Under the pieces are notes generated by a model, which was not told where the DNA came from, did no database searches, and was given only the letters and a program-made list of their open reading frames with translations. Both the position numbers and the translations under genes were made by a program. 64,000 nucleotides of DNA from Mixia osmundae IAM 14324 (Eukaryota; Basidiomycota; Mixiomycetes; Mixiales; Mixiaceae). The stretch lies in the NCBI RefSeq assembly GCF_000708205.1, contig NW_014575559.1, positions 398,575 through 462,574 on the forward strand, read 5' to 3'. This document shows positions 35,025 through 43,406 of this stretch, one piece after another. Every line of letters begins with the position of its first letter. The stretch's first letter is position 1.

Positions 35025-38000
35025 ATGGCAGCGACGAATGAGCAAGCTAGCATGCCAACCAGTGCTGCCGTTAGCGAGTCCGGCAGTCCGACCAAAGAGA
35101 CCTCCAAGCCGATTGTGTCCAGCTCTCCTGCGAGCTCATCTGGAGATTCCTCGCCTCATATGAGGCAGGCGTCTGTCCAAGCGCAGGCACGAAGCGGTCT
35201 CACGAACTTGAGCGGCACGTCGCCCGAGCTACGGCACACTTCAGGCACCTTTCCTGGCCCACGAAGTCTCTCGCCCGAGCTCAACAGATCCAGCAGCAAT
35301 GCTAGCGGCTCGCCTGTGCCGCGTCGCGCCAGACCTGTCACTGTCAGTGGACCCATGGCAGGCCTGAATTTGTACGCGCGGGACTACGCAGGCGGATCGG
35401 AAGCTCGCAGGAGGCGGCATGCCTCACAATCCGGTCTGAGCAATGCCGCTTTCACATCGACGAGCTCAGAGGCGGATAGTTTCGAGGGACGCGACAGCGG
35501 GAGCGAGATGTCAAATGATGAGGCTATGGCATTCGAGATGGACGATACTGCCGCTGCTGCACCACAAGCTAGTCCAGAGCTTGTCCCGTCCCTCTGGACA
35601 TCGTCGCAGCCTTCTTATCAAGACAGACTAGCGCCATTGCCCATCTCGTCAAGTAATGCGCCCACCAACCCCGCCATGCTGAGCGCTCACAGACTCTCAA
35701 CGACGCCGCTGTTTCCTTCGCCGCTGTCCTATGCATCTCATGCAGATGATGACGATCCGCTCGAACCTCTAGATATCTCGAGTGCTTCTTCGGAAGGCGA
35801 CGACGCCAGCAAGACGCCCGTTACTGATGGCTCTACTTCTACCGGCACGACGCGAGGCAACACAAACCTGACCGGCCTTGCATTAGGCACACTTGCGGTG
35901 CCTATGCCTGCTCCTCCACCTAAGCCAGCCAAGTCAAATCGTCGTCTCTCCAGCAAACGCCCGGGTCTATCGCCAAAGACGGCTTCTTCAGCTCTGCCCA
36001 GCCTTGCGGGAGTCTACCAGCCTAGTACATCGACTGACATGCGGTCATACAGCATGAGTGGCACTCTGAATCCTGAGAGTCCTGCGCGGCCGTCGCGAGG
36101 CAGGACTTCGGAGCGAGCAGAAGAGCAACGAATCTTGCAGCAAGCGCGCCAGGATTCCTCAGATCGGCAGAGCGCTGCCTCTTCCGGACCAGCGACACCG
36201 TCTAGCACGCTTCATCTGGCCAGATCGGACGGCGGTGGTGGCCAAAGCGCTACATCTGGCGGATCCATGCCAGGCTCTCCCTCCGAAGCTACTTCGCCTC
36301 ATAGTTGGGGAACGCCATCCACTTCCCCTACGTCTGCTCGTTCGGGCTCACAACGCACGTCGGCGACCAGTCCAGGTACCGGCAAGCCTCATCGGACGTC
36401 AATCAGTGCAGGCACTCAGTCTGGATTGCCTATCGAGACTATCAAGATGCAACGTGTTCCGAGTGCTGTGCGTAGCGCGCAAAGTATACACGCGATCTCG
36501 CCGTCGTCGTCGATATCGCGCAAGAATTCGAACAGAGCATCCTCACCCGTCACAAGTGGGTTCCCCAGACGTAGCTCGAGCGGTTTCGATTCGTTAGATT
36601 ACCCCGCCGCTCCCACTCCATCCGCGACGCGAGCCGCATCCTCAAACGACGACAGCTCGAGCGATCCTGGCATCGGTGCGATAAGCAAACACAGACTGGA
36701 GAAGAAACAGAACCTGTCGCCTGTCATGGGATCACCAGATATCAATGTGGGCGCAAATCAAAGTCATTCCGCATTCGCGCCTCTTTTTCCCTTCAGCGGG
36801 TCTCCGGCAAAGCCGATCACTGGCAGGCGCGAGCGGTCCAGATCTGTGCTTGTCAAGTCAATGTCACACACGGCCACTGAGCCTAGCCTTCTGCATCCTC
36901 ACTACAATCGAAGTGTGCAGGAGGCAGCTGATGATCCTGGCATGTTAGGCTCTGCGACGGGTCAGCCTCGTATGGCGAGCGATACCTTAGACGTCCGTGG
37001 TCAGCCATCGACGCGCCGTCTGTCACATCGCCTGTCCATGACGCCAGGTGCAGCTCCTTCAACGGATGAGTACGCAAAGATCCTGTTACAGACGCGAGCC
37101 GACAAGATCAAAAAGTGGAAAGGTCGCCAGCAGACGACTCCGAATCCCGACGCTTTGCCGCTCTGGTCGCCTCCGTTAGCGGGCGACAGCTCATCGACAG
37201 CTATTCCGCAGCATTCTGCGAGCTCACAGGGCTTCGACTTTGCGTCTGCCCTATCGAAACTTGATCTGAACGAAGCGGACACCACGTCGTCGATCAGTCA
37301 GGAGCTTGAGGCGCTTGCGCAGGATCCTGGCAAAGAGATTGAATGGGTTGACTGGCTCGACGTGGGCGCCTCTCGATCTGCCAGAGTGATGCTGACATGC
37401 GCGCAGGAATATCGACTGATGAAACAGGCGAAGCTCAAAGCCGATTCGACTGACCGATCTAATCCGCAAAATCGAACAGTGCCGCAGCAACCCGAAGCGC
37501 GCATGGCGAGCGTCTCAGAAGCTGCTGCTAACCCGGAGGCCATCGTTACGCCCGCGCAGAATCACGAGACGAATCCCTTTGATTCTAGTACCGACCGGTG
37601 GTCGATGCTGACGCCAGAGATCATGCCGCGACGGCGAAGCGTAGGATCCACGCTGTCTACGCATGCGCCGGGCACGGATCAAAGCACTGTTAATTCTCCC
37701 ACTCGTTCGAGCATGATGGATGCGTTCTCTCCTGGTAGCAGGCGTCGCAAGAATCTCAACCTGGGCGCGAAGATCGACGCCTGGTGGACTTCGGTCAGGA
37801 GTAGCTTCCTACAGCATTTTGATGAGCCATCGCCATCTAGTAGTCCCAACTCCCCCTTCAGTCAGCTCCGGCCGACTGAGCCGCGACTCTTTCGCTCGCA
37901 GTCAAGAATCGAGCCAAAGACAACGAGCGCTCTCATGGGACCACCACCCGTGCCTGTGCGAGCTTCGACTTCCTTAAGTCGTCCAAGGGCCGGCAAGAAG

Positions 38001-41000
38001 CCAAGTCTGCAATCTCTGCGCGAGCCGCCGTCTCCGCGCGAACCGATCGGCGGTGCGCTTGCGCCTGCTGCCAAGATCGCTACGCATAGACCTCAGTACC
38101 ATGCAGCCAAGCCTGGTCCTTCATCATCTGCCAAACGATCTTCAGGGAGCAGCGATAACGACACGTTCAAGACGGACACGAGGCGTCGGAATCCCAATCT
38201 ATCGCTTCGCCTAGAGCCTCGCTTCAAGCCTAATCCCATGTCTCAGCGAGATCTGAGCAATGCTGATGGCTCAGTACGGTCCACATCAGACTCTTCTGCT
38301 TCTGCTGGCGTCATGACGCCGTCAAGCGCATTCTTTGGGCCTCCTAGGTTGCGACCGATTGCTCGCTCTTCCGCTTGGTCAATTGAAGCCACGCCAGCGC
38401 TCACGCCGGGACGGCCGGCTGCATGGGATGTAACACCGGGCCCTGTGCCAGTAAGTGCGACCGAGACAGCCTACTCGGTCGCGGTTGCATCAACAGGCGA
38501 AAATGACCCTAAAGCTGTGGAGCCTCAGCAACAGAATCCAGCATTTTCAGTTTCGAGCATACGACAGCACATCAGACAGCGACTGGTCGGGGCAAAGGCC
38601 AATTGCGACAAGGAGTTGAAGAAGACGATTGCTGCGATTACAAGTTTCGTCGAAGAGGAGCTGGAGCGTGAGCGCGCAGAGGCAGTTTTCCAGCATCTCA
38701 ATCTCGACGATGCAAGCTCAACAACAGGCGATGACGATATGGCCATCGAAGATTCGGGCTTGTCCGGCACTGAAGATGGCGACGAGATCAGATCGCGACC
38801 GACGTCGGCTATGAGCTCACGTCTTCACAGCAGAGCACCCTCGGTCAGTAAACCCACATTCAGGCCTGAATCGCAGGACTTGCTGCACAGTAATTCGGCT
38901 GGCAATACGATGCAGCGCAGGCCATCCATGGTAGGCCGCGGTCCTGCTCCGTCGAGACGAATTTCCACCGCTCGACGATACACGGGCGTTACTTCGAAGC
39001 CTATTGAGTCAGCGACGCTCGGTCGCAGTCTCTCGCAACAGAGTGGAAAGTCCGAGTCAGCGCTCAGCTCCCGTTCGACTTCTCGTTCGCACTCGCCGAT
39101 GCCCGGCCAGCCACGAAGACCAACCCCTTCGCGGCAGATCTCAGCCGACAAGAAGTCTCCCTTGCTCTTGCCCCGAGATGATCATGGCGTGTCTACCTCG
39201 CCATTCATATCTACGCTACAAGACATGATCACAATTGCTACTGAGATTCTCGATACGTCCGTGATCTCGCTGGCGACAAAGTCTGGCGCATGCGCTGCCT
39301 TTATCACCCGTCTGCAAAGTCTAGGCAAGAATTGGGACGACCATCCCGAATGGCCATGCCGGCGCTCGTACATCGACTTGCTACTCAGCGTTGCTGGACT
39401 CAGCCGTGTGCTCGAATGGTGGGAAGCTGAGCGAGGGTTCTGGAACTTCAACGAGATGGACGAGGCCGAAGACGAGCCCATCATGGTGCTTGCGCGCGCC
39501 ACGACTGATGAAGAGCAAGCCAATGCTCAGTTGCGCAAAGCAAAAGCGTCTCGCAGCCGCACCACCAGCACAAATTTGACGCTAGCAACAACGGACCTGC
39601 TGCCTTTGCAATCTCGCGCGCCAGAGAATTACTTCTCCGCCCCGCTCGGCGTTGATCTTGGTGCACAAGCGCCTACCGCCGGCTCACGGCCGGTCAGTCA
39701 AATTCTTTCCGATCAGCCAGCCGTACAAGACCTTCACACTGCTGTCGAAGCTGTCCGCAAGGCAACTATCCTCGTCGAGCTCAGCCTGACGGATCACGTT
39801 TTTGAGTTTCTGAGTCCTGTGTGGCGAGATGTCACTGGGCAAGTCTTCTCTTGCCATGCTCGCGGCGATAACTGACGCGTTCCGTACAGGTTGGATCCTG
39901 ATGATTGTCTCGGTCATCCAATCAGCGATCTCGTCTATCCGGACGATGCCGCCGTCTTTGTTGAGGCGACAAATCGACTGATTGAAGATAATTCTCATAC
40001 AGTCGAGGCGACATTCCGCTTGCATGTCAGCGCGGATGGCGACGACATCTTCGAAGCGATGGAAGGCAAGGGCATGCTCATGACTGATCCTCGCACAGGC
40101 CAGCCTTCTCATACTATGTGGGTCTTCAGGCCTGCCGCCGTCAGACAAGAATTGCGGGAGGCCGTCGATGAAGTCAACTCAGCTGCGCGCTTCGGCTTGG
40201 CTCAGCACCAAAGGACGTTCAGCGATCTCACTTCGTTCATGCCGCTCGCGTCTGCGTTGACTAGCGCGCCTCTGCTCTGTCGAATCTGCGAGCGCATGGT
40301 GCCTGCGTGGTTCTTCGAGAAGCACAACGAGACCTGCAACGAGACTCATCGACTAGAGAATGCCATCGGCAACTGCAACGACAGGCTGACGGAGCTGAAG
40401 CTGACCTTGAAAGCCCTGCGCGAAGGCTTAGGCTCGCCAGAGATGTCTGATAACGAGGGCAACGCCTACTCGGGTACGCTTTTCAAGGCTTCGCAAGGCA
40501 CTTCCGCCAATTCGCAGGCTTTCGCGTCCCAACGACCTGCAGAGGCACCTGTCGTCATCACCGAGTGCTTGGCCATCCTCGAACTCGCGATCCAGATCAA
40601 GTCACCAGGCGGGTCAGAAGACTCTTTGTCGCCCACTGAGCAAGGCCAGCTCACGCCCACTTCGAGCAAGAATCTGACAAGCATTGCACACTGGGCCAAG
40701 CCAAGTATCGACAGCGATGCTGCGCTTGCTTCCATAGTCACAGATACCGACAACCTTCTCAAGGAAAAGCTGACGGCCGTCAATCGTTTGCGCAACACAA
40801 TCATCTATGCCGAACGCGTGCGGATGGAATGGGATAGCCGCGCAGCTCAGATTTTGGCAGCACAACGAGGTGCATCGCTACCGAGCAGCCCGATGCGAGC
40901 AGACATCAATTTGCCTTCTTCTCCGACACGATCGGCAGCAACATCGCCCACGCGCAAACGTCCGGACGACGGTCAGCCACGGCAAAGACCACGCTCACTC

Positions 41001-42158
41001 ATCCATTCTGCCTCGATGAATCTCAACCTGATCACTCCCGCCGTAATCGCGACGCCTCCACAATCGCCTGGACTTGCTTCACGACCGTGGGGTGAAGCAC
41101 CTCGCCGAGGCTCCGGCGATTCTGGTCATAGTAGCCCTGCTCTCAATACAGTGCCAGTTTCGCCGCGCATCCCAACTTCTGTGCCCACCGGTCGATCGAA
41201 AGCATCGTCCATCAAGGACTTTGAAATCATCAAGCCGATCAGCAAAGGCGCTTTCGGGTCGGTTTATCTCGCCAAGAAGAAGACGACGGGCGATTATTAT
41301 GCGATCAAAGTGCTCAAGAAATCCGACATGATCGCCAAAAATCAGGTCACGAATGTCAAAGCAGAGCGACTGATCCTCATGACGCAAGCCGATTCCGAAT
41401 TCGTCGTGCGCCTGTATTACACTTTCCAGAGTCGCGACTACCTCTTCCTTGTGATGGAATATCTCAACGGCGGCGATTGTGCTGCTCTGCTTAAAGTCAT
41501 GGGCTCTCTGGACGAGAATTGGACGAGAGCCTATGCAGCAGAGATCATCCTTGGCCTCGAATCGCTGCATCGCAAGGACATCGTTCACAGGTCAGCCAGC
41601 TTCTATTCTGATTCGCGACGCGACTGAAGCTTTGATGCTTGTTGACAGGGATCTCAAGCCCGACAATTTGCTCATAGATCAGCGAGGCCATCTTCGCTTC
41701 TCAGACTTTGGGTTCGTTGCGCGAGCTCTGCGAATGGGGAGTTTGCTGACGCATCGTATGGTAGTCTTTCGAAGCTGGGCGCGCTAGGACGACAGGCAAA
41801 GGCACTGGGACCTTCTCCTACGCCAATATCGCGATCTCTGTACTCGTCGCCTTTGAGCAGTCAACCTGCGACTGCAGGTCTCGATTCGATCGTCTCTACC
41901 CCAGATTCGAATCCAGTCGCCTTGCCACAAGCGGCAGGCAGCAGCAGTGGTCCCTACTTCTCTGCCAAGTCACAACGGCGGCTGAGCGATCGCGGTGTGG
42001 CACAAGCCGAGGCCGCGTCTCGGCTGTTCCAAGGCACGGGCGTTACATTTGGGCAAAGGCTGGCAGAGGCCATGTCGATGCGACCGCAGCGACCTGAGTT
42101 GGCAGCGCACAAGAACATCAGCTTTGGGAGCAGCCGATCATCTGGAACGCCGCCATGA
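35025..42158 (+). CDS. RIM15: RIM15-type PAS / AGC protein kinase, truncated in the kinase domain
   Basis: Rim15/Cek1-type kinases integrate TOR and PKA nutrient signals and drive quiescence through endosulfines. About 1600 disordered Ser/Thr-rich residues come first. A PAS domain (FEFLSPVWRDVTGLDPDD), a Cys/His zinc-like motif (CRICERMVPAWFFEKHNETC) and coiled coil follow, then the kinase: GAFGSVYLA, AIKVLKK, HRDLKPDN and SDFGLSKLG. Introns are 39839-39889 (GC donor, GCAAGT), 41591-41648 and 41712-41764. The spliced frame is 2323 residues. After the DFG the frame runs through a low-complexity insert, as in other Rim15 proteins, but stops at TGA 42156-42158. The APE motif, subdomains IX-XI, the AGC tail and the receiver domain are absent. 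Only 115 bp follow before USE1, so there is no room for them. Confidence 0.9.
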
Positions 42159-42273
42159 TCGATTTCCGCCTTCTCTAGCAACACAAGCCCCTCATGCATG
42201 TACTCTGTACAACCAGGAACTGTCACGACATTGTATGCTGTATTGCTACCTGTAAGGTCTCGTAGGACTGCCA

Positions 42274-43406
42274 TCATTTTGGGGTGATGCGAATGATGGC
42301 AAAGATCATGAACCAGGCAATAGCAACCAGAGCGACTGCGGCGATGATGAAGCAAGTGGTCGTGCCACCTTTCTTCTTGTAAGCACCCAGCTTGCCGCTC
42401 TGTTGCTTCATCTTGCCGAGATTGCCTTCTAGCTTGGTCTCCGCTTCAGAGATGGCGTTCTTGTCTTTCTCGAGCACGCTGGCAAAGTTGATGGTGTTGA
42501 GCTTCAACTGCCGGGCCATCGTCGAGAGATCCTCTGTCAGGTTATCTTGAAGCTCTCTATGATGTGAGAGCAGCGTGTCGATACCGTCTGTGCTGGCAGA
42601 CTCGGCGCGACCGTATTGCGACGATTTCCTGTTTCTGGCCAGCGTCGCTCTTCGAACTGCCGTCGAGCCCGCAGGACCATCTGCTTCGGGTATAGGTACA
42701 GCATCTTCTACATGTATCAGACCTTGATCTAGCGAAGCTCTGTTGGGCGTGGTGGTGTCGCCAAAGGGACTAGCCTCTTTGAGCGTCGCGCTCGGGCTGA
42801 CGCTCACGGGCGGCGGTGGCAGAAGCTGGGGCATTGTCGGTTCTGCAGGTTTGAGGAAGTCCGGCCGTAGACGCTTGGCTTGGCCATACTCTGGCGGCTT
42901 GAGGTCGAGCTGGAGTTCTTTGATGCGTGATTCGATGAGAGCGAGTCGACGAGCAATGTCGCTCAGCTGAGGATCTCTCACTTCTCCTGATCGACTGCAG
43001 AGAACGATTCCAACTGTAAGCTTGACCCCTATTTATACTCACAGATAGGCGCGCTTGCCTGGAGACGAGCACTGGTCCAGCTTCTTGGGTAAGCCGCTCT
43101 TGAAGTGAGCGTGCATAGGCGACTGTCTACATCATCGTGTCACACACGAGACTGAGCATCAACAGCCCGACCACGACCGGCCAGACTGACCGATAGCTCA
43201 GACTGTGTCTTCCAGTACCGATCTGCAGCAGGCAAGTTGGAGATCTCCTTGAGGCGAGGTAGTGATCGCTTGGTCGATAAGTTGGTCGGCTCGCTTGCTG
43301 ATGAAGGCACATAGCCTGCTTCTAGTCGATCCACGAGGCGAACGAGATTGATACAATCTTTTGTGAACTCGCTGCTCGATGAGGTCTGCCTCAGCCTCGA
43401 TGACAT
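42274..43406 (-). CDS. USE1: Qc-type SNARE Use1 (ER retrograde transport)
   Basis: Use1 is an ER t-SNARE for Golgi-to-ER retrograde vesicles, acting with Ufe1, Sec20 and Sec22. The N-terminus has INLVRLVDRLE. The SNARE helix (RELQDNLTEDLSTMARQLKLN onward) ends in a C-terminal membrane anchor (FIIAAVALVAIAWFMIFAI). Two 64-bp introns (43127-43190, 42995-43058) give 334 residues. The second uses CAG|GCAAGC, a GC donor, which keeps a VAYARSLQERL segment. An alternative pair of splice sites with a GTGAGT donor also keeps frame but yields a less plausible segment. It is divergent from the LOA1-like gene (176 bp) and lies tail-to-tail with truncated RIM15. Confidence 0.82.

Follow-up and report, generated by a model that had tools for sequence, protein, structure and literature searches.

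In the fern fungus Mixia osmundae IAM 14324, RIM15 is interrupted midway through its catalytic domain, which raises the question of where the rest of the kinase is encoded and whether the cell may have to build the enzyme from two separately made proteins. The gene lies in a stretch of 64,000 nucleotides (C5:398575-462574, here called the window) of a genome of 13.5 Mb on 19 contigs. A first-pass annotation, made from the letters of the window, saw the RIM15-type frame end within the activation segment and proposed a pseudokinase or scaffold form, a split gene whose remainder lies elsewhere, or a local collapse of the assembly. The second proposal is supported, because the remaining half was found as an intact separate gene on the same contig. 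RIM15 of Mixia osmundae is a Rim15/Greatwall kinase encoded by two distant genes, the result of gene fission inside the kinase domain. The public annotation of this strain lists the two parts, here called the N-half and the C-half, as two separate genes.

The N-half of RIM15 in the window

After scripted splicing, the N-half model comprises 2323 codons with a single terminal stop (window 35025-42158, plus strand). The features of the locus are as follows, in window coordinates.

35025-39838, 39890-41590, 41649-41711 and 41765-42158, plus strand: exons of the N-half gene of RIM15 from scripted splicing, with ends as in the public protein P0121
41217-41711, plus strand: kinase N-lobe, catalytic loop HRDLKPDN and DFG, containing the intron 41591-41648; Pkinase 2-149 of 263; nearest solved structures are Greatwall
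41712-41764, plus strand: intron immediately 3' of the DFG codons; DFGLS is restored by splicing
41765-42155, plus strand: activation-segment insert with the C-terminal residues SSRSSGTPP; one-piece relatives have 106-183 residues here
42156-42158, plus strand: TGA stop of the N-half; the ancestral gene was probably broken here or just before
42159-42273, no strand: 115-bp spacer from the N-half stop to the USE1 stop, the putative inner junction of an inversion; single-copy in the genome, with no repeat of at least 14 bp nearby
42274-43032, minus strand: last open frame of USE1, convergent with the N-half (PF09753, E=1.3e-19)

The first-pass annotation had read the N-lobe and catalytic motifs as intact, and splicing bears this out: 41217-41590 (in the exon from 39890), 41649-41711 and 41765-42158 join in frame and give GAFGSV, AIKVLKK, HRDLKPDN and SDFGLS. 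The Ser-rich insert that it placed before the TGA is a stretch of 128 residues after SDFGLS, and the gap of 115 bp to USE1 is also as it had been described, with the USE1 frame ending at 42274. It had further noted that subdomains VIII-XI, the AGC tail and the receiver domain are missing. When all six frames of the window were scanned for C-lobe patterns of the GTPDY, APE and DxW types, nothing matched. No C-lobe match inside the window came up in genome searches either, whether with Pkinase (129 of 184 candidates scored) or with a one-piece RIM15 (53 of 106 scored). Therefore, the C-lobe with APE onwards, the AGC tail and the receiver are absent from the window locus, and neither the scan nor these searches support a hidden C-lobe exon in the window.

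The public protein of the N-half (P0121, L969DRAFT_94460) has ends identical to those of our model and 15 internal residues fewer. The difference lies at residues 780-794 of the N-half, although the DNA frame is open there, so the public model assumes a short extra intron. A GC-AG intron is present upstream of the kinase part, at window 39839-39889. Rim15 has a PAS domain upstream of the kinase. A Pfam search of P0121 with E up to 0.001 found kinase-type families only, and a stretch resembling PAS and a Cys/His cluster were noticed only on visual inspection.

The C-half and the position of the cut

A genome-wide search for the C-lobe, which had been suggested as a check, located the C-lobe, AGC tail and receiver at C5:921946-920075, outside the window and on the strand opposite to the N-half. 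Kinase and receiver families gave a Pkinase 179-263 piece and a receiver piece in one open frame of 516 residues on the minus strand of C5. The surrounding region (L017, C5:916000-925900) contains an intact gene of 588 codons with three exons.

L017:5947-5825, 5771-4439 and 4386-4076, minus strand: exons of the C-half gene

The C-half protein begins MMAASQISQQLSSTSKRFAGTPDYLAPE, with its start 17 residues before FAGTPDYLAPE, and carries GTPDYLAPE, DWWALG, the AGC tail, the hydrophobic motif FGAFNFKN and the receiver. An in-frame stop precedes its ATG, with eight codons between, and 481,214 bp separate the ATG from the N-half stop. The public protein (P0001, L969DRAFT_49072) has 587 residues and begins at the second Met. 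In Pfam terms the two halves are complementary, since the kinase part of the N-half covers Pkinase 2-149 and the C-half covers Pkinase 146-263 and Response_reg 2-107 of 111. For the C-half as for the N-half, the nearest solved structures are those of Greatwall, and codon usage agrees between the two (r=0.90). A search of the genome with a one-piece RIM15 from a relative (P0002) gave 59 matches from the 53 of 106 candidates scored. The best three were the N-half (E=5e-71 at 68% identity) and two C-half pieces (E=2e-47 at 47%; E=2.6e-46 at 56%), the fourth had E=1.7e-39, and no second RIM15 copy of similar strength was found in this search.

Relatives were taken from two lists, one containing P0001 (best 120 of 246 matches) and one containing P0121 (best 120 of 2952). 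We aligned Mixia with 49 of the 119 non-Mixia rows of the P0121 list, namely 29 Pucciniomycotina (27 Microbotryomycetes and 2 Melampsora), 16 Agaricomycotina and 4 Ustilaginomycotina. The Pucciniomycotina rows P0131, P0138, P0139, P0203 and P0237 and the rust-like P0161 were omitted, the Agaricomycotina and Ustilaginomycotina rows were hand-picked where a simple FxGTPDY pattern matched, and the group labels follow the organism names. An HRD and a later APE motif occur in one chain in 116 of the 120 rows of the P0121 list. The other four are Mixia, P0214, P0196 and P0240. P0214 ends soon after GTPDYL on a 4-kb contig and is a partial model. P0196 and P0240 carry C-terminal receivers, and therefore only the motif pattern failed in them. 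A crude pattern found an APE-type motif and no HRD or DFG in 38 of the 120 rows of the P0001 list, P0001 included. Many of these rows come from contigs that are short or unnamed and could be exon-level gene models, and we do not claim further split RIM15 genes from them.

The insert between DFG and APE has 106-122 residues in the 29 Pucciniomycotina, 115-137 in the Agaricomycotina and 109-183 in the Ustilaginomycotina rows; in Mixia, 128 residues of it fall to the N-half and 17 to the C-half. A structure model of the one-piece relative P0002 was poor overall, with a mean predicted local distance difference test (pLDDT) score of 44.5, and only its low values of ~25-31 in the insert agree with disorder. 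The terminal SGTP of the N-half had been placed by the first-pass annotation close to the expected GTPDYLAPE. SGTPP is not the beginning of this motif: agaricomycete relatives read SGTPPGEQKFVGTPDYLAPE, so that SGTPP resembles the tail end of the insert. A Microbotryomycetes example reads ETSKQHFVGTPDYLAPE. From SGTPPGEQKFVGTPDYLAPE and ETSKQHFVGTPDYLAPE, the end of the N-half therefore corresponds to the tail of the insert and the start of the C-half to a point shortly before FxGTPDY. Compared with the 49 relatives, no conserved block is lost between the halves.

Of the columns that do not vary among the other 49 rows, Mixia matches 81 of 85 in the N-part and 57 of 61 in the C-part (DWW is not among these columns because P0126 has a gap there). 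Numbered from the start of each part, the changes are K65R, K141R, L142F and T143S in the N-part and I13V, P46A, W106F and A240K in the C-part. None of the eight is at a catalytic residue. The catalytic Lys, the HRD Asp and the DFG Asp are all kept in the N-half. Identity to Agaricomycotina and Ustilaginomycotina averages 0.670 for the C-lobe and 0.534 for the receiver; the 27 Microbotryomycetes range over 0.663-0.753 and 0.386-0.526, respectively.

The receiver of Mixia keeps the phospho-acceptor Asp, which is found in this column in 48 of the 49 relatives, and excerpts of PMC8510515 describe its retention by basidiomycete Rim15 receivers. Therefore, the second chain may carry two-component input. 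Within Pucciniomycotina this Asp is present in 28 of 29 receivers. The pair of residues before NP in the receiver is GR in 26 of the 29 Pucciniomycotina, and ED in all 20 Agaricomycotina and Ustilaginomycotina and in Mixia. Of the remaining Pucciniomycotina, the two Melampsora rows have ED and one row did not match the pattern. As far as the aligned rows indicate, the acidic pair may have been lost from Microbotryomycete Rim15 receivers.

Proposed assembly in trans and competing explanations

It is rather likely that both halves are made as proteins and come together in trans as one Greatwall-type kinase. The regulatory region, N-lobe, catalytic loop, DFG and insert would come from the N-half; GTPDYLAPE, the remainder of the C-lobe, the AGC tail, the hydrophobic motif and the receiver would come from the C-half. 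Helix E, in the N-half, would be packed against helix F, in the C-half. In AGC kinases the C-tail wraps the N-lobe. In Mixia the AGC tail and hydrophobic motif are both on the C-half; they would bind across the N-lobe and could clamp the two chains. Excerpts of PMC5342071 describe the tail and hydrophobic-motif pockets. The assembled pair would phosphorylate endosulfine (Igo), and PP2A-B55 would thereby be inhibited. The genome has one endosulfine match (PF04667, E=9.3e-12), which reads KYFDSGDY, and the DSG motif in it is phosphorylated by Greatwall according to an excerpt of PMC11961639. Because the receiver sits on the second subunit, two-component signals could control kinase assembly. Somewhat less securely, the pair could well be a natural two-subunit eukaryotic protein kinase, with two separately regulated Greatwall chains that would have to meet, cut in the regulatory DFG-to-APE insert.

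Like Mixia, Rim15/Greatwall (MASTL) AGC kinases have an N-lobe, HRD, DFG, a long DFG-APE insert, a C-lobe, an AGC tail and, in fungi, a receiver, but they are one polypeptide, whereas Mixia has two distant genes. A kinase domain in two chains was engineered earlier from Lyn, and the cut used there, at 393-394, reportedly lies in the activation segment. Unlike the Mixia genes, split Lyn is artificial and its chains were joined via fused dimerising domains, as excerpts of PMC6168510 (citing Camacho-Soto 2014) describe. In human Greatwall, four residues can stand in for approximately 500 between DFG and APE in an enzyme that acts on its substrate, so that the insert is not needed to hold the active kinase together (excerpts of PMC5342071). 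This minimal kinase is an engineered single chain, whereas Mixia has two chains. From partial sources, the bacterial HipBST split HipA kinases are also natural Ser/Thr kinases with the N-terminal piece as a separate gene, but they belong to an unrelated kinase family, their genes are adjacent and the small piece is an antitoxin. Drosophila CG8878 has a kinase domain interrupted near the catalytic and activation loops, but by an insertion of ~194 residues within one protein (excerpts of PMC3948951). Among the matches listed in the open-licence literature searched, a scope outside which most subscription papers fall, we found no natural two-gene split of a eukaryotic protein kinase, and this literature gave no paper on Rim15 of Mixia osmundae.

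The main alternative, which we consider rather unlikely, is that the split is real but kinase output has been lost, with the two genes reduced to a scaffold (N-half) and an orphan receiver protein (C-half), or with a break too recent for either to have decayed. Several observations weigh in this direction and against a working pair. Mixia is the most diverged row in both halves, being the lowest of the 50 for invariant columns in each. Its mean identity to the outgroups lies slightly below the Microbotryomycetes range in the N-part (0.767; 0.784-0.829), the AGC tail block of 23 columns (0.581; 0.586-0.762) and the hydrophobic-motif block of 25 columns (0.670; 0.684-0.792). The C-half alone is poorly modelled around APE, with a pLDDT of 33-49 in this region, 68-86 in the C-lobe helices, 92-96 in receiver residues 431-510 and 54.7 on average. 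No dimerising domain was found in the Mixia halves, whereas split Lyn used fused ones.

On the other side, the frames and introns of both genes are intact, catalytic residues are kept on both sides of the cut and the Greatwall site of endosulfine is kept. As judged from the alignment, both halves are conserved, diverging slightly more in the N-part and in the two tail blocks. The pseudokinase or scaffold form put forward by the first-pass annotation finds no support in the sequence, because the two genes together carry the catalytic landmarks and the genome retains endosulfine.

An assembly misjoin, with one uninterrupted RIM15 on the true chromosome, is very unlikely. The assembly is imperfect, since contig C17 seems to duplicate the end of C8, with an unvarying offset. 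However, the N-half and C-half junctions are each single-copy in the genome, neither contains Ns, and exact matches shared by the two reach no more than 11 bp within ~500 bp and 15 bp within ~10 kb; repeat-driven misassembly is therefore improbable and a misjoin of this kind is not supported. The N-half also closes with a stop, and the C-half opens with an ATG after an in-frame stop. Each protein is reported on two contigs, the longest of which has the 1,194,905 bp of C5 and the second of which possibly comes from the separate BABT02 assembly, a 454/Newbler assembly that excerpts of PMC3376729 describe as published with gene models from RNA sequencing and transcription start sites. The proposal of a local assembly collapse is likewise unlikely on these junction data, with the C-half present elsewhere. 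Rejoining of the two loci at the RNA level by trans-splicing is highly improbable: the cut is near a spot where the coding parts could join without losing a conserved block, but the N-half stop lies inside its last exon, the C-half has its own ATG with the in-frame stop eight codons upstream, and the public models are two proteins.

If the two halves do work together as one kinase, Mixia would provide a natural counterpart of the engineered split kinase, in which the odd Greatwall insert makes the kinase domain separable. Such a kinase would be controlled by subunit supply and would be a test of how the AGC tail holds two lobes. If they do not, a central quiescence kinase has been lost with its substrate kept, which would show how the pathway can be rewired.

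Junctions, neighbouring genes and origin of the split

The two halves lie on the same contig on opposite strands, and the C-half has the orientation expected if the intervening block were inverted. USE1 lies next to the N-half on the inner side. On its outer side, the C-half adjoins a divergent GNAT acetyltransferase gene, presumably NAA40-like, which starts ~140 bp away (start Met picked by eye). We infer that the split arose by a chromosomal rearrangement, in the simplest case a single inversion of ~481 kb with one cut within the RIM15 insert and the other between the USE1 and GNAT genes. It would have broken RIM15 at the 3' end of the DFG-to-APE insert and supplied the N-half with an end, so that it stops just past the break. 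The C-half starts at its own ATG and probably uses the region upstream of the divergent GNAT gene as a promoter. The family PF00590, which is also present in the RIM15 model P0139 of a relative, is located on contig C7 in Mixia and says little about the inversion.

The end of the N-half (window 42148-42156) and the start of the C-half (L017:5936-5944) contain mutually complementary words of nine bases, possibly a hairpin at the break or a chance match; they were noticed post hoc and were not used as evidence. The family-18 glycosyltransferase gene beside the C-half lies at L017:2013-3969, and two further Mixia paralogs are on a contig of 1,351,221 bp. A protein search with this gene, meant for comparing gene order with relatives, returned three proteins, all from Mixia. 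Its by-eye model equals P0241 over the whole length and needs a GC-AG intron. Outside the window, C8:623141-756092 and C17 gave three match pairs with a constant offset of 623,140 and equal scores. C17 therefore seems to be a copy of the end of C8 that continues beyond it, either an unmerged overlap or a duplication. At L017:556-1150, a unit of ~40 residues is repeated in open frames of both strands, which points to a tandem DNA repeat.
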